Below, piece by piece: positions 51,163-64,000 of a stretch of DNA of 64,000 nucleotides. Under the pieces are notes generated by a model. That model was given only the letters and a program-made list of their open reading frames with translations. It was not told the origin of the DNA and made no database searches. Location: assembly GCA_029266425.1 (NCBI GenBank), contig JAQSWY010000005.1, forward strand, positions 62,001 through 126,000. The letters are read 5' to 3'. The position numbers and the translations under genes are program-made. Source of the stretch: Xanthobacteraceae bacterium (GTDB taxonomy: Bacteria; Pseudomonadota; Alphaproteobacteria; Rhizobiales; Xanthobacteraceae). Position 1 is the first letter of the stretch. Each line of letters starts with the position of its first letter.

Positions 51163-52506
51163 ATGCAGTCCGTTCCCTCGCCGGCCCTCCAGCTCAAGGA
51201 GCTGATCTCCGACCGCCGCGCCCGCATCGGCGTCATCGGCCTCGGCTATGTCGGCCTGCCTCTGGCGCTGGTCGCGGTCGAGGCGGGCTTTCCGGTGCTC
51301 GGCCACGACATCAATGGCAAGCGCGTTGCCGAGATCGCCGCCGGCAAGCAGGTCATCCGCTACATCCCCGCCGAGCGGATGGAAGCGGCGCTCGCCACCG
51401 GGCGCTTCGAGGTCACGGCCGGCGTCGAGGCGTTCGGCGACTGCGACGTGCTGGTGATCTGCGTGCCGACGCCGCTCACCCGGCAGCGCGAGCCGGAGCT
51501 CTCCTTCGTCGTTGCCACCGCCCGCACCATCGCCAAATCGCTGCGCCCGGGCCAGCTGATCGTGCTGGAATCCACCACATGGCCGGGCACCACGGTCGAG
51601 GTGGTCAAGCCGATCCTGGAGGAGACGGGGCTGGTATCGGGTCGTGACTTCTTCCTCGCCTTCTCGCCGGAGCGCGAAGATCCCGGCAACCCCAGCTATT
51701 CCACCGCTACCATCCCGAAAGTCGTCGGCGGCGACGGCGCGATTGCCGGCGAACTCGTGGAAGCGCTCTATGCCGGCCTGGTCGAGCGGGTGGTGCCGGT
51801 GTCCTCGACCCAGACCGCCGAGGCGGTGAAGCTCACCGAGAACATCTTCCGCGCCGTCAACATAGCTTTGGTCAACGAGCTGAAGACCGTCTACGCCGCC
51901 ATGGGCATCGACATCTGGGAGGTGATCGACGCCGCGCGGACCAAGCCGTTCGGCTTCATGCCGTTCTATCCGGGGCCGGGGCTCGGGGGGCACTGCATCC
52001 CGATCGATCCCTTCTATCTCACCTGGAAAGCGCGGGAATTCGATATCGAGACCCGCTTCATCGAGCTCGCCGGCCAGATCAACACCCGCATGCCCTATGT
52101 GGTGGTGGACCGGCTTGCCGCCGAACTCGACGCCACCGCCGGGCGCGGCCTCTCCGGCGCGCGCATATTGGTGCTCGGCGCCGCCTACAAGAAGGACGTC
52201 GACGACACCCGCGAGAGCCCGGCGCTGAAGCTGATGGAACTGATCGACGAACGCGGCGCGGTCTGCGAGTACCACGACCCGCACGTCCCAGTGCTGCCGC
52301 CGACCCGCCGCCACCCGCGCCTTGCCGGCAAGGCGTCGACCCCGCTCGATGCCGCGACCATTGCCGGCTTCGACGCCGTGCTGGTGGCGACCGATCACGA
52401 GGCGATCGATTATGCGCTGGTGGCCGCGCATGCCCGCCTTGTCGTCGACACCCGCAACGCCTTCGCCCGCCTCGGTCTCAACCCGAAGCGCATGGTCAAG
52501 GCGTAG
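51163..52506 (+). CDS. nucleotide sugar dehydrogenase (UDP-N-acetylglucosamine 6-dehydrogenase-like)
   Basis: 447-residue NAD-dependent enzyme oxidising a UDP-sugar to the uronic acid. Rossmann GLGYVGLPLALVAVEAGF, STTWPGTTVEVVKPILEE, FSPEREDPGN, the helix AEAVKLTENIFRAVNIALVNELKTV, and catalytic Cys in GGHCIPIDPFYLTWKARE are intact. The HCIPIDPFYLTWK form resembles WbpA-type UDP-GlcNAc/GalNAc dehydrogenases. It stands alone, without glycosyltransferases. Confidence 0.9.
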   Translation: MQSVPSPALQLKELISDRRARIGVIGLGYVGLPLALVAVEAGFPVLGHDINGKRVAEIAAGKQVIRYIPAERMEAALATGRFEVTAGVEAFGDCDVLVICVPTPLTRQREPELSFVVATARTIAKSLRPGQLIVLESTTWPGTTVEVVKPILEETGLVSGRDFFLAFSPEREDPGNPSYSTATIPKVVGGDGAIAGELVEALYAGLVERVVPVSSTQTAEAVKLTENIFRAVNIALVNELKTVYAAMGIDIWEVIDAARTKPFGFMPFYPGPGLGGHCIPIDPFYLTWKAREFDIETRFIELAGQINTRMPYVVVDRLAAELDATAGRGLSGARILVLGAAYKKDVDDTRESPALKLMELIDERGAVCEYHDPHVPVLPPTRRHPRLAGKASTPLDAATIAGFDAVLVATDHEAIDYALVAAHARLVVDTRNAFARLGLNPKRMVKA

Positions 52507-52545: not shown

Positions 52546-52575
52546 TTGCGCCCGGTTGCGCCGGATTTATATAAT
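52546..52575 (+). promoter_or_regulatory. putative sigma70-type promoter of the ABC-like/cNBD/cyclase operon
   Basis: A perfect TATAAT at 52570-52575 with TTGCGC at 52546-52551 (18-base spacing), in a locally AT-rich patch rare in this window. It lies 85 bases upstream of the TTG start at 52661. Confidence 0.5.
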
Positions 52576-52660
52576 GATTGCGTGACAAGGCGCCGCTTCG
52601 CAGTGCGCCTGTGCCGCTGCCCGGATCTACCCGCTTCCGACGACGAAGGGCGCAAAGGCT

Positions 52661-55438
52661 TTGCTGGTCAACTTCTTCCAATATGTCTGGCGCTACAGCC
52701 GGCGCGAGCAGATCATCGTGCTCGGCTATGTGCTGGCGTCTCTGCCCTTCTACTGGTGGTCGCTCGACGTTCCCAAGCGCATCGTCAATGAGGCGATCCA
52801 GGGCGGCGCCTTTACCAACGGCCATACCCAGGCGCGCTTCTTCGAGATGACGCTGACGCTGCCGGACTTCCTCGGCGGCGGCAGCTACCACCTCTCCGAT
52901 GGCTTCATGCTGGAGCAGCTGCCGTATCTCTATGCGCTCAGCATGGTGTTCCTGGCGCTGACGCTGATCAACGGCTGGTTCAAATACGTCATCAATATCC
53001 GCAAGGGGATACTGGGCGAGCGCATGCTGCGGCGGCTGCGCTTCGATTTGTTCGCTTTGGTGCTGCGGTTCCGGCCGGAGGACATCCGCACCACCAAGTC
53101 GGCCGAAGTCGCCAGCATGATCAAGGACGAGGTGGAGCCGATCGGCGGCTTCTTCGGCGAGGCCTTCATCACGCCGGCCTTCCTCGGCACCCAGGCCATC
53201 ACCGCCATGACCTTCATCATGACGCAGAACATGTGGCTCGGGCTGATCGCCTTCGGGCTGATCGCGGTGCAGGGCTTCGTCATTCCGCGCCTGCGTCGCG
53301 AGCAGATCCGCCTCGGCCGCGAGCGCCAACTGGAATCGCGCACGCTCTCGGGCCGGATCGGCGAATTCGTCGAGGCGGCGCCGGCCATCCACGCCTATGG
53401 GGTGACGCATTACAGCGGCGCCGATATCGGCAAGCGGCTCGGCACGTTGTTCGATATCCGCCTCAGGCTCTATCGCCGCAAGTTCGCGGTGAAATACCTC
53501 AACAACCTGCTGGCGCAGCTGACCCCCTTTGTCTTCTACATTCTAGGCGGCTATCTCGCGCTGAACGGGCGGCTCGACATCGGCCAGCTGGTCGCGGTGA
53601 TCGCGGCCTATCGCGACCTGCCGACCCCGATCAAGGAGCTGATCGACTGGGACCAGCAGCGCGCCGACGTCACCGTGAAATACGAGCAGGTGGTCGGCGC
53701 GTTCTCCAAGGACGTGCTGCTGCCGCCGGAACCTGAGACGGACGGCGATCCGATCCCGGCGGACGCCGATATCGGGGTCAGCGGCCTCAGGGTGGTGAAC
53801 AGCCGCGGCATCGTCCAGCTCGACCGTGTCACCACCACCTTGCCGCGACCGAGCCGCATTGCCCTGGTCGGCGGGGCGGGGAGCGGGCGCGACGTGCTCG
53901 CCAAGGTGCTCGGCCGCCAGATCACCGACTATCAGGGCAGCGTCACCATCGGCGGGCGCGAGCTCGGCACGATGACCGATCGCGCCGCGAGCCGCTCCGT
54001 CATCTATGCCTCGAGCGAACCGCACATCATGTCCGGCTCGATCCGCGACAATCTGCTCTTCGCCCTGCGCGATGCGGTGCCGCCCGTGCCGGAGGATCTC
54101 GACGCCAAGGCGCGCGCCGAGCTCATCGAGGCGCGGATGACTGCCAATCCGCTGGTCTCTCCCGATGACGACTGGATCGACTATTCCGGCGTCGGCGCCT
54201 CCGGACCCGACGAGTTGGACGGCGCCATCATCGAGGCGCTGCGCGTCGTGCGCGGCTATGACGACATCTTCCGCGTCGGCTTTGCGAGCCGGCTCGGCGA
54301 CGACGTCGATCCTGCGCTCGCGACGCGCCTGCTGGAGTCCCGCAGTGCCATACTCGACCATTTCCGCGAGCGCGGCCTATTGAAGTTCGTCGAGCCGTTC
54401 GAGGCCGGCGCCTTCAACATGAACGCCAGCATCGGCGAGAACCTCTTGTTCGGCGTGCCGGTCGGGTCGCGTTTCGCGCCGGAGAACCTCGCCCAGGACA
54501 ATTTCGTGCGCGCCATCATCTCGGCGGAGGCGCTCGCCGGGCCGCTCCTGGCGATCGGGCTGAAGATCGTCGAGACCGTCGCCGACGTGTTCCAGGGCAT
54601 GGCGGCGGACAACCCGCTGCGCGAGCGCTACTCCTTCATCGACGAGGGCGACCTCGAGACGCTGCTGCCGGCGCTGCAGGGCAATTGGCTGGACAACCAG
54701 CGCGAGCGCATTCCGAGCGCGGTGCGCCAGCAGCTGATCGGCTATGGGCTGATGTATGTCGAGCCCCGCCACCGCCTCAACATGATGGATGACGATCTCG
54801 TCGCCCGGGTGCTGCGTGCCCGCAAGAGCTTCCGCCAGTTCCTCCCCGCCAGCGAGGCCGGCGCCATCGAGTTCTATGACGCCGGCCGGCTGATGCCGGC
54901 GGCGCCGATCCGCGACAACCTGCTCCCCGGCCGCATCCGCTACGGCAAGATGCATGAGCGGGCCCGCCTGCTCGCCGCCGTCGCCGAGGTGCTGCAGCAG
55001 CGCGGGCTGGAGACCTTCGTGGTCTCCAAGGGCCTCGACCAGGACGCCGGACCCGGCGGGCGCCTGCTCTCGCCGCAGCAGCGCGCCACCATCCAGCTGG
55101 CCCGGCTGATGCTGCGTCGGCCGGACACTCTGGTGCTCGATGGGGCACTCTCTAGTTTCTCGGGCTCGGAAGCGCATATGATGATGAAGAACATCTGCGC
55201 GGCCATGGAAGGGCGCACGCTCATCGTCAGCCAGTCGGAGGAGGACGATGTCAGCGACTTCGACATCGTGCTGACGTTCGACGGTGCCAAACTCACCAGC
55301 GTGGTGCGCGAGAACGAGATGTCGGCAGCGGGCGAGATCGAAAATACGGGTGAAAACCGGGCCACGCTGGTGCCTGAGCCTTCCGGCGCGGCGGACGCCG
55401 GTGCCTCGCCACCTACTCCGCAGGAGGTAGGGAAATGA
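52661..55438 (+). CDS. ABC-exporter-like membrane protein with degenerate, expanded nucleotide-binding region
   Basis: 925 residues. The first ~340 form an exporter-type transmembrane domain (helices near 18-33, 88-108, 170-210, 285-300). The following domain resembles an ABC ATPase, but the phosphate loop (403-411) is VGGAGSGRD, lacking the Lys and Ser/Thr; the signature position reads LLSPQQ (802-807) and Walker B DTLVLDGALSS has Gly828 where catalytic Glu is expected. About 390 residues separate the P-loop from the signature, against ~100 usually, and this span contains three Q-loop-like segments: SGSIRDNLLF (458-467), NASIGENLLFG (588-598) and AAPIRDNLLPG (747-757). The TTG start has AAAGG upstream. 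ATP turnover seems unlikely; the role is unknown. It overlaps the cNBD gene by ATGA. Confidence 0.82.
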   Translation: MLVNFFQYVWRYSRREQIIVLGYVLASLPFYWWSLDVPKRIVNEAIQGGAFTNGHTQARFFEMTLTLPDFLGGGSYHLSDGFMLEQLPYLYALSMVFLALTLINGWFKYVINIRKGILGERMLRRLRFDLFALVLRFRPEDIRTTKSAEVASMIKDEVEPIGGFFGEAFITPAFLGTQAITAMTFIMTQNMWLGLIAFGLIAVQGFVIPRLRREQIRLGRERQLESRTLSGRIGEFVEAAPAIHAYGVTHYSGADIGKRLGTLFDIRLRLYRRKFAVKYLNNLLAQLTPFVFYILGGYLALNGRLDIGQLVAVIAAYRDLPTPIKELIDWDQQRADVTVKYEQVVGAFSKDVLLPPEPETDGDPIPADADIGVSGLRVVNSRGIVQLDRVTTTLPRPSRIALVGGAGSGRDVLAKVLGRQITDYQGSVTIGGRELGTMTDRAASRSVIYASSEPHIMSGSIRDNLLFALRDAVPPVPEDLDAKARAELIEARMTANPLVSPDDDWIDYSGVGASGPDELDGAIIEALRVVRGYDDIFRVGFASRLGDDVDPALATRLLESRSAILDHFRERGLLKFVEPFEAGAFNMNASIGENLLFGVPVGSRFAPENLAQDNFVRAIISAEALAGPLLAIGLKIVETVADVFQGMAADNPLRERYSFIDEGDLETLLPALQGNWLDNQRERIPSAVRQQLIGYGLMYVEPRHRLNMMDDDLVARVLRARKSFRQFLPASEAGAIEFYDAGRLMPAAPIRDNLLPGRIRYGKMHERARLLAAVAEVLQQRGLETFVVSKGLDQDAGPGGRLLSPQQRATIQLARLMLRRPDTLVLDGALSSFSGSEAHMMMKNICAAMEGRTLIVSQSEEDDVSDFDIVLTFDGAKLTSVVRENEMSAAGEIENTGENRATLVPEPSGAADAGASPPTPQEVGK

Positions 55439-55944
55439 CGATCGATGACGAAGTCAGGTCCTTGCAGAAGTTCCGCATGTTCGAGGCGGTGGAGGCCTCC
55501 AAGCTGAAGCTGCTGGCGATGATCGCGGACCGCATCGTGTTCCAGCCGGGCGAGGTCGTCTATGAGCAGGGCGCGGCCTCCGATGCCGTGTTCATCGTGC
55601 TGAGCGGCCAGTTCAAGGTGTCGCTTAACACCGATCGCGGCGTGATCGACTTCGCCGAGCATGTCCGCGGCGCGCTGCTCGGCGAGGCTGGGGTGCTGTG
55701 CGGCCAGACCCGCGGCGTCACCATCACCGCCGAAAACGAGGTCATCGCGCTCCGGATCGACCGCGAGCCCTTCATGCAGCTGCTCGAGGAATCCAGGCCG
55801 TTCAACCTCGCGGTGATGCGCGAGCTGAGCCGGCAGATCCTCGACCTCAACAAGATCTGCGCGCAGCTGGTGATGCGCCTGCCGGACGGTGCGCCGGCCG
55901 TCGACGCCTCCCGCCCGCTCACGCCTCCTGCCGTCACGCACTGA
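55435..55944 (+). CDS. stand-alone cyclic-nucleotide-binding domain protein
   Basis: 169 residues, essentially one cNMP-binding domain (residues 8-130; FQPGEVVYEQGAASDAVFIVLSGQFKVSL) without a DNA-binding HTH. In the phosphate-binding cassette LLGEAGVLCGQTRGVTITA the Glu and Arg that contact the cyclic phosphate are kept, so binding of cAMP or a relative is plausible. The C-terminal helix continues for ~25 residues. It overlaps both neighbours (ATGA/TGATG), so it is a subunit-like partner of the ABC-like protein and the CyaC-like protein. Confidence 0.88.
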   Translation: MTIDDEVRSLQKFRMFEAVEASKLKLLAMIADRIVFQPGEVVYEQGAASDAVFIVLSGQFKVSLNTDRGVIDFAEHVRGALLGEAGVLCGQTRGVTITAENEVIALRIDREPFMQLLEESRPFNLAVMRELSRQILDLNKICAQLVMRLPDGAPAVDASRPLTPPAVTH

Positions 55945-57695
55945 TGTCGCCCGCCTCGAGCCCCGCCGCCGAGCCGCGCACGCCGCGCAGCCGCATCACG
56001 AGCAATGTCTGGGTGCGCCCGGCGCGGATGTGGTCCGGGATCATCCTGTTCGCATTCGTCACCACCCACCTCCTCAACCATGCGGTCGGGGTCTTCGGCA
56101 TCGCCGCCATGGAAGCGGTCCAGGAGTGGCGCTGGGCGCTGTGGAAGGCGCCGCCCGGTGCCATCGTGCTCTATGGCGCGGCCCTCGTGCATATCGCCCT
56201 GACCACGCACCGCCTCATCCGCCGCCAGACCTGGCGCATGCCGGACGACGAGGTGCTGCAGATCATCTTTGGTTTCTCCATACCGTTTCTGATCGTCGGC
56301 CACATCGCCGAGACCCGGATCGGTGGCTCCTTCTACGGGGTAGACGAGGCCTATCGCGCGGTGCTGTATCGGCTGTGGCCGAGCGCGGCGTGGTGGCAAA
56401 GCGCCTTGCTGGTCGTGGCCTGGACCCACGGGGTGATCGGGCTGCACCACATCGTGCACCACCGGCGCTGGTATCCGCGCTGGCGGATGAGCTGCATCGT
56501 CCTGGCCGTGCTGATCCCGGTGCTGGCGCTCGCCGGCTTCGTCGCCGCGGCACGCGAGGCGCGCGCCATGGCGCCGCCAGCGCCGCTCGGCGAGATGCAG
56601 CGTGCCGGCATCGACGAGGTGCGCATGCTGATGGACAGCGGGCTCGCGGCCTTCGCCTTCGGCGTCGTCGGGCTGCTCGCCTTCGCCTATATCCGCCGGC
56701 GCGCTGCGGCCACGGTGACGCTCACCTATCGCGGCTACGGGCCGGTGAAGGTGCCGCGCGGCACCTCGGTGCTGGAAGCGAGCCGTATGCACCACATCCC
56801 GCACCCCTCCGCCTGCGGCGGACGCGGGCGCTGCTCCACCTGCCGCATCCATGTGCTGGCCGGGTCGGGCGAATTGCCGGACCCGTTCGGCGTCGAGGGC
56901 CGGCTGCTGGACCGCATCGGCGCCTCGGCCAATGTGCGCCTCGCCTGCCAGATCCGGCCGACCCACGATATCAGCCTGCGCATATTGATGCCGGTGCTGG
57001 GCGAGCAGAGGGTGCGCGAGGAGGACGAGCAGCAGATCCAGGAATGGGCACTGGAGCAGGAGGCGACCGTGCTCTGCCTCGACCTGCGCGCCTTCAACAT
57101 GCTGACCCGCTCCAGCCAACCCTATGAGATCGCGGTCCTGATCAACCGCTTCGCCTCGGAGATGACGCAGGCGGTGGAACATCGCGGCGGGCGCGTCGAC
57201 CAGATGCACGGCCACGGCCTCGTCGCCATCTTCGACACCCCGACCGGCAGCGCCAGCGCGCGCAACGCGCTCAACGCCGCCCAGGACATGGCGCGGGTGA
57301 TCGACCTGCTCAATGCCGAGATCAGCGGCGCACTGCCGATCCCGATCCGCGCCGGCATCGGCATCCATAGCGGCCCCGTGGTGCTCACCCGCATCGGGGC
57401 GGATGTGGCGTCTTCCTCGCTGCGCGCCTTCGGCGGCACCATCACCATCGCCGCCCGGCTGGAAGCGGCGACCAAGGACATGCTGGCCGACTTCGTGGTC
57501 TCCGAGGCGACGGCAAAAATTTCAAAATTCGACTTTTCCGGATTGAAGTCACGGGACATCATGGTCGACGGTAGCGACATGGCGGTTTCCGCCTTTATGA
57601 TCGGCGACCAGGAGGCCTTGGCGCAGGTGCTCGGCGGGACCAAGATGCTGGCGGAAACAAAAGCGCAAACGGCGATGGCCGCGGCGAGAGGATGA
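55944..57695 (+). CDS. cyaC: CyaC-like membrane protein: SDH-type anchor, [2Fe-2S] ferredoxin and degenerate class III cyclase domain
   Basis: 583 residues. Residues 25-250 hold six expected helices with histidines for heme (H42, H46, H83, H89, H120, H162, H168-169) like succinate dehydrogenase anchors; 255-350 is a ferredoxin domain with C291, C297, C300 and C335; 372-555 is a class III nucleotide cyclase. This is the order of the quinone/redox-responsive CyaC of Sinorhizobium meliloti (established family). By eye-alignment, only the first metal Asp (D380) and the transition-state Arg (R505) remain; the adenine Lys is Q420, the second metal Asp is H424, the Thr/Asp specificity position is R494 and the Asn is T501. 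cAMP synthesis is therefore doubtful. ATG overlaps the cNBD stop. Confidence 0.85.
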   Translation: MSPASSPAAEPRTPRSRITSNVWVRPARMWSGIILFAFVTTHLLNHAVGVFGIAAMEAVQEWRWALWKAPPGAIVLYGAALVHIALTTHRLIRRQTWRMPDDEVLQIIFGFSIPFLIVGHIAETRIGGSFYGVDEAYRAVLYRLWPSAAWWQSALLVVAWTHGVIGLHHIVHHRRWYPRWRMSCIVLAVLIPVLALAGFVAAAREARAMAPPAPLGEMQRAGIDEVRMLMDSGLAAFAFGVVGLLAFAYIRRRAAATVTLTYRGYGPVKVPRGTSVLEASRMHHIPHPSACGGRGRCSTCRIHVLAGSGELPDPFGVEGRLLDRIGASANVRLACQIRPTHDISLRILMPVLGEQRVREEDEQQIQEWALEQEATVLCLDLRAFNMLTRSSQPYEIAVLINRFASEMTQAVEHRGGRVDQMHGHGLVAIFDTPTGSASARNALNAAQDMARVIDLLNAEISGALPIPIRAGIGIHSGPVVLTRIGADVASSSLRAFGGTITIAARLEAATKDMLADFVVSEATAKISKFDFSGLKSRDIMVDGSDMAVSAFMIGDQEALAQVLGGTKMLAETKAQTAMAAARG

Positions 57696-57699
57696 CGAT

Positions 57700-59592
57700 G
57701 TGCTGGCGGCCGTGACCCCCGAAGTGCTGCGTATCGAGGATCTGCGTATCGGCTTCGCCCTCCACGGCCAACTGGACGAGGTGGTGAAGGGGGTATCGTT
57801 CCGCGTGCCCGCCGGCCGCACCGTGGCGCTGGTGGGCGAGTCCGGGTCCGGCAAGACCGTCATCTCCCGCGCGGTGATGGGCCTCTTGCCCCCCAACGGC
57901 GTGATCACCGAGGGGCGGATCCTGTTCTCCGATCCGGCCCGCAAGCCGAACGGCGAGGCCAAGGCCCCGCTCGACATTGCCGGGCTGCCGACGGACGGCA
58001 AGGTGATCCGCCATCTGCGCGGCGGGCGCATCGGCATGATCTTCCAGGAACCGATGTCCTCGCTCTCGCCGGTCCACACCATCGGCAACCAGGTCGAGGA
58101 AGCGCTGCAGCTGCATCGCCCGCATCCGCACCGGGAAGCCCGCGCGGTGACCGAGCGGATGCTGGAGCTGGTCGGCTTCCGCGAGCCGCAGCGGGCCTAT
58201 GACCGCTATCCGTTCGAGCTCTCCGGCGGGCTTCGCCAGCGCGCCATGCTCGCCATGGCGCTGATCTGCCATCCGGCCCTGCTGATCGCCGACGAGCCGA
58301 CCACCGCGCTCGACATGACCATCCAGGCCCAGGTGCTGAAGCTGATGAAGGAGCTTCAGCAGGATATCGGCATGGCGATCCTGCTCATCACCCACGACCT
58401 CGGCGTCGTCGCCAACATGGCGGAGGAGGTCGTGGTGATCTATCAGGGCGCGATCATGGAGATGGGCACGGTCGACGACGTGTTCCGCGATCCCCGCCAT
58501 CCCTATCTCAAGGCCCTGCTGAAGGCCTGCCCGCGCTTCGACATGCCGGATGGCGAGCGGCTGGTAGCGCTGCGCGACATTCCGCCCGTGGTGCCGGAGC
58601 GGCCCGACGCGTACCGCCTGGAGACCTGCGGCGCGCCGATCCTCACTGTCGAGAACCTCCGCAAGACCTATGGCGGCAAGAAGAACGGGGGCGGCGTCAT
58701 CGCCGTCGACGATGTCAGCTTCGAGATCCGCCGCGGCGAATGCATGGGCCTCGTCGGCGAGAGCGGCTCGGGCAAGACCACGGTAGGCAATCTGATCACC
58801 CGTGCCCGCGCCGCGGATTCCGGCTCGATCACCTTCCACGGCCGCAACGGGCCGATCGATGTGCGCGCCCTCGGCAAGGACGCGCTGCGCGCCTTCCGGC
58901 CGTGCATGCAGATGATCTTCCAGGATCCGGTATCCTCCCTGTCGCCGCGCATGACCGTGCTCGACATCATCCGTGAGCCGATGATCATCCAGGGCCGCGG
59001 CGATTCCGACTGGCAGAAGGAGCGCGTCATCGAGCTGATGCGCTTCGTCGGCCTCGATCCGCGCTTCCTCAATCGCTATCCGCACAGCTTCTCCGGCGGC
59101 CAGCGCCAGCGCATCGGCATCGCCCGCGCCCTCGCGCTCGATCCCGACCTCATCATCTGCGACGAGCCGGTCTCCGCGCTCGACGTCTCGGTGCAGGCGC
59201 AGGTCCTCAATCTGCTGAAGGACCTGCAGAAGGCGCTCGGCCTCACCTACCTCTTCGTCTCGCACAATCTCGCCGTCGTCCACTACATGGCCGACCGCAT
59301 CGCGGTGATGGCGCGCGGGCGCATCGTCGAGATGGCGACGCGCGACGCGCTGTTCGCCAATCCGGTGCATCCCTATACGAAGAACCTGTTGAAGTCGGTG
59401 CTGGTGCCCGACCTCGATCAGCGCTTCGATTTCGAGATCCCGATGTCGGCCGGCGGTGCCTCCGATCCGCAGATCTGGCCGGAGGCGTTCCGCGGCATCA
59501 ATGGCGGGGGCCTTGCCCCGGTCGATCTCGGCGGCGGCCATATCGTGCTGGCGGACCGCGACTGCGTCCGCTCCGACCTCGTGCCGGCATAG
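57700..59592 (+). CDS. peptide-type ABC importer ATP-binding protein, tandem (DppD-DppF fusion)
   Basis: 630-residue protein with two complete ATPase domains: Walker A GESGSGKT near 45 and again near 350 (GESGSGKTT), signatures [15 protein letters not shown] and [15 protein letters not shown], Walker [14 protein letters not shown] and [13 protein letters not shown]. Linker with [12 protein letters not shown] is an oligopeptide ATPase C-terminal region. The GTG start is four bases after the cyclase stop, so the importer is probably in the same transcript. Confidence 0.92.
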
Positions 59593-59600
59593 GTCGCACC

Positions 59601-61547
59601 ATGTGGAATGCTTCGATCCGACTGGTGTTGGCGCTTCTCCTTCTGCTCGGCGCCGGCCTGTGGCTGCCGACCCGCGTCGTGGCGGCGGCGGGCATACCGG
59701 ATGTCTCGGCCGAGCCGCCGATCCTCGCCGACGAGGTGCGCGCCGGCGGCCTGCCGCCGATGGCGGAGCGCCTGCCGGGGCAGCCGCGGGTGATCGATCT
59801 CAAGGCGATGGGCCGCGAGCCGGGGCGCTATGGCGGCACGCTGCGGCTGCTGATGGGCGACCAGCGCGATATCCGCATGGTGACGCTCTATGGCTATGCC
59901 CGACTGATGGTGTTCGACCTCGAGGGCAATCTCGAACCCGACATTCTGCGCTCGGTCGATGTCGAGGAAGCCCGGGTCTTCACCCTGCATCTGCGCGAAG
60001 GACATCGCTGGTCGGACGGCGCGCCCTTTACCGCGGAGGATTTCCGCTACTGGTGGGAGGACGTCGCCAACAATGCGACCCTCAATCCGGGCGGGCCGCC
60101 GCGCGCCATGATGGTCGGCGGCCAACCGCCGCGGTTCGAGGTGATCGATCCGCTCACCGTCCGCTACACTTGGACGATGCCCAATCCGGGCTTCCTGCCG
60201 GCATTGGCGGCGGCGAACCCCTTCGTCATCGCCATGCCGTTCCACTATCTGAAGCAGTTCCACGCCCGCTATGCCGACCCCGACGCGCTCGCCAAGCTGG
60301 TCAAGCAGGTTCGGGTGAAGGATTGGAGCGCGCTTCACGACCGCAAGGCGCGCGCCTACCGCCCGGAGAATCCGAACCTGCCGACGCTCGGGCCGTGGAA
60401 GCCGCTGACCTACCCGCCGGCGGAACTCTTCCTGTTCGAGCGCAACCCCTATTATCACCGGGTCGACGAGGCCGGCCGCCAGCTGCCCTATATCGACAAG
60501 GTCTCGATATCGATCGGCACCTCCTCGCTGATCCCGGCCAAGGTCGGGGCCGGTGGCGCGGATCTCCAGGCGCGCTATCTGCGCTTCGACAGCTACACCT
60601 TCCTGAAGGCGGCCGAGGAGCGGCAGAATTACCGGGTGCGGCTCTGGGAGAATGGCGAGGGCGCCAATGTCGCCGTCGTGCCGAACCTCAATGCCGCCGA
60701 TCCCGGCTGGCGCGCCGTGCTGCGCGACGTGCGGGTGCGCCGCGCGCTCTCGGTCGGCATCAATCGGCGCGACATAAACGAGGTGATCTTCTTCGGCCTC
60801 GCCCATGAAGGCGCCAACACCGTCATACCCGGCAGCCAGCTCTACGATTCCAAGTACGATCAGGCCTGGGCGCACTATGATCCGGCGCTCGCCAACCGAT
60901 TGCTCGACGAGGCCGGCCTCGCCAGGCGCGACAGCGACGGCATCCGCCTGCTGCCCGACGGGCGGCGCGCCGAGATCACGGTGGAGACCGCCGGCGACAG
61001 CACCGAGGAATCCGATATCCTGGAGCTCGTCGGCTATGACTGGAAGAAGCTCGGGATCGCCATGTTCGTGCGGCCGACGCAGCGCGACATACTTCGCCGC
61101 GGCGTCATCGCCGGCAAGGTGATGATGTCGACCTGGAAGGGGCTCGATAATTCGATCCCGAGCCCGGACATGGAGCCGACCGAGCTGGCGCCGTCCAATT
61201 CCATGCAGTTCCAATGGCCGCTCTGGGGCCAGTACGCCGACAGCATGGGCCATGAGGGCGAGGCGCCGGACCTGCCGGAAGCGGCCGAGCTCGTCGAGCT
61301 GCACCAGAAATGGCGGCATTCGACCAGCGTCGAGCAGCGCCGCGATATCTGGCGCCGCATGCTGGAGATCAATGCCGACCAGGTCTTCACCATCGGCATC
61401 GTCAACCGCACCCGCCAGCCGGTGGTGGTGTCGAACCTGCTACGCAATGTGCCGGACGTCGGCGTCTATGCGTTCGAGCCCGGCTCGTATTTCGGCATCT
61501 ATCTGCCGGACACGTTCTGGTTCGACGGCGACGCGCAGAAGGAGTGA
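59601..61547 (+). CDS. peptide-type ABC importer substrate-binding protein (family 5)
   Basis: 648-residue periplasmic binder, longer than typical DppA (~535). Signal peptide MWNASIRLVLALLLLLGAGLWLPTRVVAAA; mature chain has PGRYGGTLRLLMGDQRDIRM, FTLHLREGHRWSDGAPFTAEDFRYWWEDV and DVRVRRALSVGINRRDI. The extra length and lack of close resemblance to DppA suggest a non-peptide or unusual ligand; some relatives bind sugars or opines. Confidence 0.9.
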   Translation: MWNASIRLVLALLLLLGAGLWLPTRVVAAAGIPDVSAEPPILADEVRAGGLPPMAERLPGQPRVIDLKAMGREPGRYGGTLRLLMGDQRDIRMVTLYGYARLMVFDLEGNLEPDILRSVDVEEARVFTLHLREGHRWSDGAPFTAEDFRYWWEDVANNATLNPGGPPRAMMVGGQPPRFEVIDPLTVRYTWTMPNPGFLPALAAANPFVIAMPFHYLKQFHARYADPDALAKLVKQVRVKDWSALHDRKARAYRPENPNLPTLGPWKPLTYPPAELFLFERNPYYHRVDEAGRQLPYIDKVSISIGTSSLIPAKVGAGGADLQARYLRFDSYTFLKAAEERQNYRVRLWENGEGANVAVVPNLNAADPGWRAVLRDVRVRRALSVGINRRDINEVIFFGLAHEGANTVIPGSQLYDSKYDQAWAHYDPALANRLLDEAGLARRDSDGIRLLPDGRRAEITVETAGDSTEESDILELVGYDWKKLGIAMFVRPTQRDILRRGVIAGKVMMSTWKGLDNSIPSPDMEPTELAPSNSMQFQWPLWGQYADSMGHEGEAPDLPEAAELVELHQKWRHSTSVEQRRDIWRRMLEINADQVFTIGIVNRTRQPVVVSNLLRNVPDVGVYAFEPGSYFGIYLPDTFWFDGDAQKE

Positions 61548-61550
61548 GCC

Positions 61551-62549
61551 GTGCTGCGCTACATCACCCGGCGGATCGCGATCATGGTGCCGACCTTATT
61601 GGTCGCCAGCGCGCTCATCTTCACCGTGATGCAATTGCCGCCGAGCGACTATTTCGAGACCTATGTGGCCGAGATGGCGGCGCAGGGCGAGAAGGTCGAC
61701 ACCAGCCGCATCGAATTCCTGCGCAAGGAATACGGCTTCGACCTGCCGCCGGTGCAGCGCTACTTCAAATGGATCACCGGCTTCTTCCAGGGCGATTTCG
61801 GCTACTCGTTCGAATATGAGATGCCGGTGCGCGAGATCGTCGGCGAACGGCTCGGGCTCACCGTGCTGCTCTCGCTCTCCACCATATTGGTGACCTGGCT
61901 GATCGCCTTTCCGATCGGGATCTATTCCGCCACCCACCAATATAGCTGGGGCGATTACGGACTTACCTTCCTCGGCCTGCTCGGCATCGCGATCCCGCAC
62001 TTCCTGCTGGCGCTGATCGTGATGTACTTCGCCAATGTCTGGTTCGGCCTGTCGATCGGCGGGCTGATGGACCCGATGTATTTCGACCAGCCGATGAGTT
62101 GGGACAAGGCGCAGTCGATCCTCGCCCATCTGTGGATCCCGGTGCTCATCATCGGCGCCGGCGGCACCGGCACCATGGTGCGGGCGATCCGGGCCAACCT
62201 GCTCGACGAGCTGCGGAAGCAATATTACGTCACCGCAAAGGCCAAGGGCCTCTCGCAGCGCCGCGCGCTGGTGAAGTATCCGCTGCGGATGTCGCTAAAC
62301 TTCTTCATCTCGGGCATAGGCGACGTGCTGCCGACCATCGTCTCCGGCTCCGAGCTGACCGCCGTAGTGCTGTCGCTGCAGACCACGGGACCCTTGCTGC
62401 TGCGCGCGCTGCAGAGCCAGGACATGTATCTCGCGGGTTCGTTCCTGATGTTCCTGTCCTGCCTCACCGTGATCGGGGTGCTGATCTCGGATATCGCGCT
62501 CGGCTTCCTCGATCCGCGCATTCGCTTCACCGGCGGGGCTTCCAAATGA
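61551..62549 (+). CDS. peptide-type ABC importer permease (DppB-like)
   Basis: 332 residues, six helices. N-terminus MLRYITRRIAIMVPTLLVASALIFTVMQLPPSDYF and EAA loop LLDELRKQYYVTAKAKGLSQRRALVKYPLRMSL are typical. GTG start three bases after the binding-protein stop; overlaps the next gene by ATGA. Confidence 0.92.
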   Translation: MLRYITRRIAIMVPTLLVASALIFTVMQLPPSDYFETYVAEMAAQGEKVDTSRIEFLRKEYGFDLPPVQRYFKWITGFFQGDFGYSFEYEMPVREIVGERLGLTVLLSLSTILVTWLIAFPIGIYSATHQYSWGDYGLTFLGLLGIAIPHFLLALIVMYFANVWFGLSIGGLMDPMYFDQPMSWDKAQSILAHLWIPVLIIGAGGTGTMVRAIRANLLDELRKQYYVTAKAKGLSQRRALVKYPLRMSLNFFISGIGDVLPTIVSGSELTAVVLSLQTTGPLLLRALQSQDMYLAGSFLMFLSCLTVIGVLISDIALGFLDPRIRFTGGASK

Positions 62550-63745
62550 CCGCAGGTCCCATGCCACCCCCGCAGCCCGGCGTGCTGGCCGGCCCGGAGC
62601 GGCTGCCGCACATCATCGCCGAGGGCCCGTTCGATCCCTACACCGCCGAGGTGCTGACCGACGCGCAGAAGCGGGTCTATCTCGCCTCGCAGCTCACCTT
62701 GATGTGGTGGAAGTTCAAGCGGCACCGCCTCGCTCTGTTCTCCGGCATCTTCCTGATCGGGCTCTATTCCGCGATCCTGATCTGCGAGTTCCTGGCGCCG
62801 TACGACTATCAGGCGCGGCACACCGACTTCATCCGCTCGCCGCCGCAAGCGATCCACCTGTTCCATGACGGCGCGTTTGTCGGCCCCTTCACCTACGGGC
62901 TGAACTATCAGCTCGACATGCAGAACATGCGGCGCACCTATTCGGAGGACCGCACCCGGATCTATCCGGTGCGCTTCTTCTGCCAGGGCGACCCCTACAT
63001 GTTCTGGGGCATGATCCCCGGCAACCGGCATCTGATGTGCCCGGGGGAGGGCGGCACGCTGTTCCTGCTCGGCACCGACCGGCTCGGCCGCGACATGCTC
63101 TCGCGCATCATCTATGGCGCGCGGATCTCGCTCACCATCGGCCTCATCGGCGTCGCGGTGAGCTTCACCCTCGGCATCATCATCGGCGGGCTCGCCGGCT
63201 ATTATGGCGGCCTGTTCGACCTCGTCATGCAGCGGGTGATCGAGGTCATCCAGTCGCTGCCGCACATCCCGCTCTGGCTCGCTTTGTCGGCGATCATGCC
63301 GCCGACCTGGAGCCCGCTGCTGGTCTATTTCATGATCACCATGATCCTCGGCCTGATGGACTGGACCGGGCTCGCCCGCGCGGTGCGCTCCAAGCTCTTG
63401 TCGCTGCGCGAGGATGATTATGTCGTCGCCGCCCAGCTGATGGGCGCGCGGACCCCGCGCATCGTGTTCCGCCATCTGGTGCCGGGCTTCCTCAGCCATC
63501 TGATCGCCTCGGCGACCATCACCATCCCGACCATGATCCTCGGCGAGACCGCGCTGAGCTTCCTCGGCCTTGGCCTGCGGCCGCCCATCACCAGCTGGGG
63601 CGTGATGTTGAACGAGGCGCAGAACATCAATATCGTGGTGTTCTACCCATGGCTCATCCTGCCCGTGGTGCCGGTCATCGCCGTGATCCTCGCCTTCAAT
63701 TTCCTTGGCGACGGCCTGCGCGATGCTGCCGACCCCTATCATTGA
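62546..63745 (+). CDS. peptide-type ABC importer permease (DppC-like)
   Basis: 399 residues, longer than DppC (~300) because of ~95 residues inserted after the first helix (periplasmic loop ARHTDFIRSPPQAIHLFHDG...CPGEGGTLFLLGTDRLGRD). The GTDRLGRDMLSRIIYGARISL and EAA loop LREDDYVVAAQLMGARTPRIVFRHLVPGFL motifs are standard. ATG overlaps the previous stop. Confidence 0.92.
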   Translation: MTAGPMPPPQPGVLAGPERLPHIIAEGPFDPYTAEVLTDAQKRVYLASQLTLMWWKFKRHRLALFSGIFLIGLYSAILICEFLAPYDYQARHTDFIRSPPQAIHLFHDGAFVGPFTYGLNYQLDMQNMRRTYSEDRTRIYPVRFFCQGDPYMFWGMIPGNRHLMCPGEGGTLFLLGTDRLGRDMLSRIIYGARISLTIGLIGVAVSFTLGIIIGGLAGYYGGLFDLVMQRVIEVIQSLPHIPLWLALSAIMPPTWSPLLVYFMITMILGLMDWTGLARAVRSKLLSLREDDYVVAAQLMGARTPRIVFRHLVPGFLSHLIASATITIPTMILGETALSFLGLGLRPPITSWGVMLNEAQNINIVVFYPWLILPVVPVIAVILAFNFLGDGLRDAADPYH

Positions 63746-63790: not shown

Positions 63791-64000
63791 ATGCCCGCCT
63801 TCATGTCCGGCCTTTCCCGTCTCGAGAAGACGCTGTTCCGCCTCGAAGCCCAGCGCGCATGCCTTGCCTGGGCGTTCGAGGAGATCGCCGATCGCCCCGG
63901 ATTCGTGCTGGAACTCGGGCTCGGCCTCGGGCGCACCTATGACCATCTGCGCCGCCATCTGCCCGGTCGCGACATCCTGGTCTTCGACCGGGTGAACGTC
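63791..64000 (+). CDS. class I SAM-dependent methyltransferase, C-terminus cut by window edge
   Basis: First 70 residues only. FVLELGLGLGRTYDHLRRHLPGRDILVFDRVN is the SAM-binding motif I with the following acidic strand. The ATG at 63791 starts 45 bases after the importer operon. Substrate unknown. Confidence 0.75.
   Translation, partial: MPAFMSGLSRLEKTLFRLEAQRACLAWAFEEIADRPGFVLELGLGLGRTYDHLRRHLPGRDILVFDRVNV

Follow-up and report, generated by a model that had tools for sequence, protein, structure and literature searches.

Genes of the locus and the pseudo-ABC exporter with its cyclic nucleotide-binding domain

The window, a 64,000-nt stretch of contig JAQSWY010000005.1 from a Xanthobacteraceae bacterium (assembly GCA_029266425.1, positions 62,001 to 126,000), carries three overlapping genes encoding an exporter-shaped ABC protein with a degenerate ATPase (ABC-like protein), a protein made of a lone cyclic nucleotide-binding domain (cNBD), and a membrane protein resembling the redox-regulated cyclase CyaC (CyaC-like protein) (Table 1). 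The three overlapping genes had been proposed in an earlier reading made from the letters alone (sequence-only reading) and were confirmed, with an ATGA overlap between the first two and a TGATG overlap between the last two. The start that it gave to the first gene, nt 52546, was too early; this frame holds a stop at nt 52583, and the start was therefore moved to a TTG at nt 52661. In the close relatives L038 and L040 to L043 (L and G denote loci and genomes), the first possible start, picked mechanically, was also a TTG at the matching N-terminus. The anatomy of the trio is more than chance, for relatives show it again and purifying selection acts on it (see below).

Table 1. Genes and domains in and around the trio (nt positions in the window)
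Feature	Position	Strand	Basis or remark
Nucleotide sugar dehydrogenase, recurrent cluster member	51163..52506	+	TIGR03026 above cut-off
ABC-like gene, pseudo-ABC exporter homologue, 925 aa	52661..55438	+	TTG start
Insert in the nucleotide-binding domain, ~260 aa (residues ~471-731), tandem Q-loop/helical subdomain copies (DNLLF / ENLLFG motifs)	54071..54853	+	
Lone cNBD gene, 169 aa, without HTH	55435..55944	+	Pfam cNMP_binding only
CyaC-type gene, 583 aa, encoding a membrane anchor, a ferredoxin domain and a degenerate cyclase	55944..57695	+	S. meliloti cyaC match
Helical membrane anchor of CyaC-like protein, His42, 46, 83, 120, 162	56001..56705	+	
2Fe-2S ferredoxin domain, Cys291, 297, 300, 335	56712..56984	+	Pfam Fer2
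Class III cyclase fold, catalytic residues lost	57039..57605	+	Foldseek 1wc1 E 1.6e-13
Importer ATPase, two intact-looking nucleotide-binding domains	57700..59592	+	Pfam, motif reading
Importer family-5 solute-binding protein	59601..61547	+	Pfam
Importer permease B	61551..62549	+	Pfam
Importer permease C, ATG start at 62546, overlaps the permease B gene	62546..63745	+	Pfam
Methyltransf_17 methyltransferase, cut by window end	63812..64000	+	

The ABC-like protein matched Pfam ABC_membrane (residues 88–315) and, in part, ABC_tran (residues 387–493, half of the model). Its exporter-type transmembrane fold was supported by the former match and, with modest TM-scores, by Foldseek: the AlphaFold model (pLDDT 83.8, pTM 0.76, 35 sequences) had ABC transporters as top matches, many of them exporters, including MsbA (7ph3), TmrAB (6rah) and YbtPQ (8vsi). 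The two halves of its nucleotide-binding domain lie about 300 residues apart, separated by the insert. The insert is regarded as repeated because hhalign matched alignment segment R3 to R2 and to R1 with probabilities of 97.7 and 94.7, respectively, the R1-R2 match being weak (26.6).

The sequence-only reading of a non-standard ATPase region was borne out, as three of the four Walker catalytic residues expected of an active exporter are gone. In Walker A (GGAGSGRD), Lys is replaced by R410 and Ser/Thr by D411; in Walker B (VLDG), D827 is kept and the catalytic Glu is replaced by G828. The six best-scoring ordinary exporters from the same genome all had canonical motifs. Among 127 aligned family proteins, the window included, all four residues were kept in 1, three in 3, two in 68, one in 38, and none in 17; the degenerate ATPase is thus a trait of the whole family. 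The sole member with all four (L134, G267:C5) is possibly ancestral-like. From these motifs, the ABC-like protein is predicted to be a non-hydrolysing, exporter-shaped scaffold. The window genome (G000) also carries a third relative of the family, at 10337-12763 of L129 (G000:C36) and within a 1130-aa open frame.

The cNBD of the window matched Pfam cNMP_binding alone (63.7 bits) and possesses the phosphate-contact residues E84 and R93, in agreement with the sequence-only reading of an intact pair without HTH; it may bind a ligand. Counts of loci refer to the best 80 of at least 487 confirmed ABC relatives, on stretches of 5.6–22.8 kb each. A cNBD was present in 78 of these 80, its gene lying directly downstream of the ABC gene at no more than 177 bases; in 39 of the 78, the ABC stop is part of an ATGA, and three large negative gaps between the two genes came from over-long frames. 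The two were fused into a single protein in L122 and L123 (Azospirillum thermophilum and Ruegeria conchae) and in L128, a paralogue in the window genome. Given this adjacency and fusion, ABC and cNBD are read as a physical unit in which the cNBD would be the nucleotide-sensing subunit of the ABC scaffold. This pair is the widely conserved core, and the trio is narrower. In the paralogous locus (L128, G000:C212, 2901-9385), the fused ABC-cNBD protein of 1036 aa accompanies an MBL-fold protein and a CHASE2 cyclase that retains all six of the catalytic residues considered below.

The phosphate-binding Arg was kept in 73 of the 74 cNBDs outside trios with a degenerate CyaC, and the single exception, L045, itself adjoins a CyaC cut by the contig end. 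Within such trios it was gone in 11 of 21 (Fisher p 5e-8, phylogeny ignored), and these fell in two clades, one being nine members of the Bosea clade and the other L046 and L049. L094, in which a degenerate CyaC directly follows the ABC gene, was searched for a cNBD without finding one and was left out of this count; L112 likewise had no cNBD.

The CyaC-like protein: conserved sensor and degenerate cyclase

The CyaC-like protein shared 34.7% identity over 96% of the query with Sinorhizobium meliloti cyaC (L035) and matched Pfam Fer2 and Guanylate_cyc; its model had a pLDDT of 82.4. The five anchor His residues, predicted haem ligands of a CyaC-type anchor, were conserved in 58–59 of the 59 rows of the alignment, and the four ferredoxin Cys in 58, the remaining row being cut off at that place.

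Six residues of the cyclase were compared: two metal-binding Asp, the substrate-binding Lys and Asp, and the transition-state Asn and Arg. Relative to L035, the window protein has lost four, Lys being replaced by Q420, the second metal Asp by H424, the substrate Asp by G498, and the transition-state Asn by T501, and has kept metal Asp D380 and Arg R505; Lys410, Asn491 and Arg495 of S. meliloti align with Q420, T501 and R505. The earlier description of a cyclase missing most catalytic residues was therefore accurate, as was the more general statement that nucleotide-binding folds are kept and catalytic residues gone in two of the three proteins. Judged from these substitutions, quinone-dependent cyclase activity is predicted to be absent.

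The trio extends beyond this strain, the co-occurrence that the sequence-only reading had put forward as its check. Same-strand CyaC-type genes within 1.6 kb downstream of an ABC-cNBD pair numbered 26 (the window, L135/L145, and 24 of the 80 loci), and in 22 of them two or more of the residues Lys, Asn and Arg were gone. In a sample of the class, the best-scoring places yielded 29 CyaCs outside the window; the 28 not adjacent to an ABC gene, as far as the contigs show, were all intact, and the 29th, in G042, was adjacent and degenerate. The three plasmid CyaCs (L035 to L037) were also intact. L117 has a CyaC-like gene on the opposite strand, 816 bases away, with only Lys changed to Gln; the tree counts it with the non-adjacent CyaCs, and the 28 do not include it. 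The tree and residue counts did not include L045, its cyclase being cut by the contig end, and the fragments of L138 were kept out of the residue table.

In a quick tree of 58 rows, the 22 degenerate CyaCs formed one clade (SH-aLRT 100). Cyclase catalysis was thus probably lost once, the clade then diversifying across Bosea, Ancylobacter, Labrys, Methylobacteriaceae and further groups, with metagenome bins among its members. Among L038, L041 and L042, the omega of the dead cyclase was 0.03–0.05, lower than that of the sensor; in other pairs it was 0.07–0.43, at times exceeding the sensor.

No other cyclase domain was found in 23 of the 26 trio stretches, the exceptions being L046, L050 and L054. 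In L050 and L054 (13194-16372; Chelatococcus), another cyclase sits between the ABC-cNBD pair and an intact CyaC; in this first cyclase, Arg is replaced by Lys and the substrate Asp by Glu, and the two may form a natural pair. The window genome as a whole has six further cyclase-domain places, three with all six residues. A different cyclase, of 446–449 aa, occurs in the rhizobial clusters L118 (2629-3972), L119, L120 and L124; its substrate Lys and Asp are both replaced by Ser, with Asn and Arg kept, and it possibly has a different nucleotide specificity.

Glycan-type genes, importer and genome co-occurrence

The order on the contig is sugar dehydrogenase, ABC, cNBD, CyaC, four importer genes and methyltransferase, the importer ATPase gene beginning 4 bases past the CyaC-like stop. 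Beyond the window, on the opposite strand, are a deacetylase-like gene, for which no Pfam match was found at E 0.001, and four glycosyltransferase genes. This glycan-type cluster is an addition to the description in the sequence-only reading. The search for its components used, as references, plasmid-encoded proteins of Rhizobium, Sinorhizobium, Mesorhizobium, Phyllobacterium and Azospirillum, all taken from around members of the ABC family. At least one of five glycosyltransferases was found in 60 of the 80 loci, an importer component in 54, a polysaccharide-deacetylase homologue in 54, and the nucleotide sugar dehydrogenase in 21. In 20 control regions of 8.4–20 kb, all from the window genome and ten of them around ordinary exporters, glycosyltransferase, binding-protein or deacetylase matches occurred in none, and the importer ATPase was matched in four.

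The importer ATPase of the window has two canonical cassettes. The solved chains nearest to its solute-binding protein were 5ipw (putative oligopeptide), SPH1118 and an alpha-galactoside-binding protein. SPH1118 is described as pectin-binding (PMC9314435). Since the binding protein resembles oligosaccharide- as well as peptide-binding proteins, the label "peptide importer" is insecure. Thus, of the suggestion in the sequence-only reading that a peptide importer could be the output of the trio, the link to the importer stood, 89 of the 98 ABC-carrying genomes possessing its binding protein, and the peptide specificity is not secure.

Co-occurrence was counted in an even sample of 289 alphaproteobacterial genomes, with E-value thresholds of 1e-30 for ABC, 1e-25 for CyaC, 1e-80 for the binding protein, and 1e-90 for an unrelated neighbouring gene, a CoA-transferase, used as the control. 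Matches were found in 98, 80, 92 and 143 genomes, respectively. ABC and binding protein occurred together in 89 genomes, with 9 having ABC only and 3 the binding protein only (odds 620), and their starts were no more than 15 kb apart in 47. ABC and CyaC were together in 75, with 23 having ABC only and 5 CyaC only (odds 121, or 60 within the genomes carrying the control gene). For ABC and the control gene the numbers were 79, 19 and 64 (odds 8).

Two further observations concern the rhizobial clusters. A DUF3095 protein is encoded within them (L124, 20010-21173; L120, 992-2218). A transposon study (PMC11103875) names pRL110056 as an O-antigen gene important in root colonisation; by gene numbering, and as a guess, this gene could fall in the L120 cluster (pRL11, Rhizobium johnstonii 3841).

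Possible modes of signalling and comparison with known systems

We propose, as a reading that falls a little short of probable, that the trio is a membrane regulatory unit of a glycan or oligosaccharide cluster, in which an ancestral switch from redox state through cAMP and cNBD to the pseudo-ABC protein has become one of direct contact in the window clade. In the ancestral route, quinone or redox state would have been passed to a CyaC-type adenylate cyclase, then by cAMP to the cNBD, and from there to the pseudo-ABC protein; such control by CyaC is inferred from the genome co-occurrence and published CyaC biology. In the window clade, the CyaC gene adjoins the pair, haem and Fe-S ligands are kept and cyclase catalysis appears lost, and the cNBD of some clade members has also lost its phosphate contacts. 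Redox state would then be handed by contact from the cyclase-shaped domain to the cNBD and ABC proteins, and the complex would control synthesis or transport of the cluster glycan, the neighbouring importer included. The more specific view, that a second-messenger pathway is turning into a direct relay, with a dead-cyclase redox sensor acting on a receptor that is losing cAMP binding and this on a non-hydrolysing ABC protein gating the glycan, is possible, if on balance doubtful.

The proposed reading is favoured by the ABC-cNBD unit, the ATPase degeneracy of the family, the dead cyclases with conserved redox ligands beside the pair, the loss of the cNBD Arg in trios with such a cyclase, purifying selection on the dead cyclase, the genome co-occurrence, and the glycosyltransferases around the loci. 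Further evidence comes from the S. meliloti protein. CyaC has two haem B and is regulated by the quinone redox state, and a published partner is Clr, a cNBD regulator (PMC10463352). Variants at Lys410/Thr484 or Asn491/Arg495 had no cyclase activity and were still two-hybrid positive with Clr, the set for Asn491/Arg495 being given as data not shown; the numbering of Lys410, Thr484, Asn491 and Arg495 in L035 matches that of the paper.

Several points weigh against contact signalling in a non-hydrolysing unit. Clr co-sediments with S. meliloti CyaC in an ATP-dependent manner and no longer did so with the Lys410/Thr484 variant (PMC10463352). Of the ABC relatives, 25 of 29 from the class sample, 26 of the best 80 from contigs and 1 of 17 others retain the Walker A Lys, so that many could bind ATP and not turn it over. 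The cNBD of the window itself keeps E84 and R93, and cyclic nucleotide may therefore still bind. Four ABC-adjacent CyaCs (L050, L054, L067 and L115) are intact, and 21 of the 22 degenerate CyaCs retain the pair of metal Asp, of which the window protein alone has lost one. As the degenerate CyaCs are monophyletic, their loss of residues and their adjacency can be counted only once; the independent-pairs test of degeneration against adjacency likewise gave a single pair, and the association was thus not counted as repeated. The co-occurrence and cNBD tests ignore phylogeny. Only 3 of the 289 genomes (G000, G042 and G218, the last at 10 kb) have their ABC and CyaC starts no more than 15 kb apart; in most genomes the link, if it is real, is therefore non-operonic.

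The main rival to a contact relay is that the CyaC-like protein is a half-cyclase, which supplies the metal Asp and forms, with a partner class III cyclase providing Lys, Asp, Asn and Arg, a heterodimer that keeps redox-controlled cAMP synthesis. In mammalian cyclases, the C1 half supplies the metal aspartates and pairs with the other half. This explanation is serious because metal Asp without Lys, Asn and Arg resembles one half of a heterodimer, the pattern of 21 of the 22 degenerate CyaCs, and the fully equipped cyclases elsewhere in the window genome could serve as partners. However, the window protein itself lacks the second metal Asp, most trio stretches hold no other cyclase domain, and the phosphate-contact Arg of the cNBD is also gone in about half of the trios. 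On this evidence a half-cyclase is rather unlikely. Signal passage by protein contacts or through an unknown nucleotide, both suggested in the sequence-only reading, is a hypothesis.

Ordinary cAMP signalling, in which the cNBD-ABC unit senses cAMP from other cyclases, with the CyaC-like protein silent or merely a structural third subunit, would agree with the intact phosphate contacts of the window cNBD, with the nearly invariant Arg outside the degenerate trios, and with the paralogous ABC-cNBD fusion beside a complete CHASE2 cyclase. It is nonetheless fairly improbable, since the dead cyclase evolves under purifying selection among the close Ancylobacter relatives and the redox ligands are conserved, which suggests that this domain probably does something.

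That the trio consists of decaying remnants without function, as the loss of catalytic residues from two of its three proteins might suggest, is very improbable, for open frames and gene order are kept across genera with overlapping starts and conserved ligands, and dN/dS well below 1 contradicts recent pseudogenes. A Pycsar-like anti-phage system, a cyclase with a cyclic-nucleotide-gated membrane effector, is hardly credible and was rejected: PADLOC PycC models did match the cyclase domain, and PycTIR and TIR-effector models the cNBD, but the cyclase residues are lost, the ABC protein had no PADLOC match, the cNBD protein holds a cNBD alone with no TIR match in Pfam, and the identified neighbours, which lay outside the PADLOC scan, are glycan and importer genes. 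Matches of the window proteins to phrogs were generic ABC and cyclase families.

In the open-licence literature searched, no degenerate ABC family with a cNBD subunit, a repeated helical subdomain, and ties to a redox cyclase and glycan or importer genes was found; searches on pseudo-cyclases turned up cardiac work only, and those on CyaC with ferredoxin and on cluster terms found nothing. The CyaC architecture (PMC10463352) and cNBD-bearing ABC exporters such as HetC (PMC10986499) are already known. Of the new kind of signalling unit suggested by the sequence-only reading, the redox-cyclase architecture is accordingly not new, and the trio itself recurs. The pseudo-ABC family was found in 98 of 289 sampled alphaproteobacterial genomes, with a cNBD usually present, and ties together a redox cyclase, a cluster of surface-glycan type and an importer.

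S. meliloti CyaC is a class III adenylate cyclase that is under redox control and anchored in the membrane by a diheme-B domain, and its partner Clr is a cNBD protein (PMC10463352); the window protein shares its His and Cys ligands. Unlike it, the window protein lacks Lys, Asn and one metal Asp, and its gene overlaps a lone cNBD gene near a pseudo-ABC gene, whereas S. meliloti cyaC lies by regulator genes. HetC of Nostoc PCC 7120 (PMC10986499) similarly joins ABC exporter and cNBD in one working unit and requires both the cNBD and the ATPase glutamate for function; its cNBD is N-terminal and binds ppGpp in vitro, and it carries a C39 peptidase. The window family has its cNBD as a separate protein or at the C-terminus and has lost the ATPase residues, and Pfam found no peptidase domain in the ABC-like protein of the window, which is thus not HetC-like. 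NCBIfam TIGR03896 ("bacteriocin-type transport-associated protein") is also a cNBD protein tied by name to an export system, and the window cNBD scored 32 bits against it, below the cut-off of 161. The closest likeness in the window genome is L128, where a member of this ABC family likewise occurs with a cNBD and has a cyclase beside it; that cyclase, however, retains the complete set of six residues, and ABC and cNBD form a single protein. The sister clades, with cyclases and cNBDs live in some and dead in others, form a natural experiment on whether contact can replace a second messenger, and, if the proposed reading is true, the output of CyaC-type sensors would extend beyond the transcription regulators proposed in PMC10463352.

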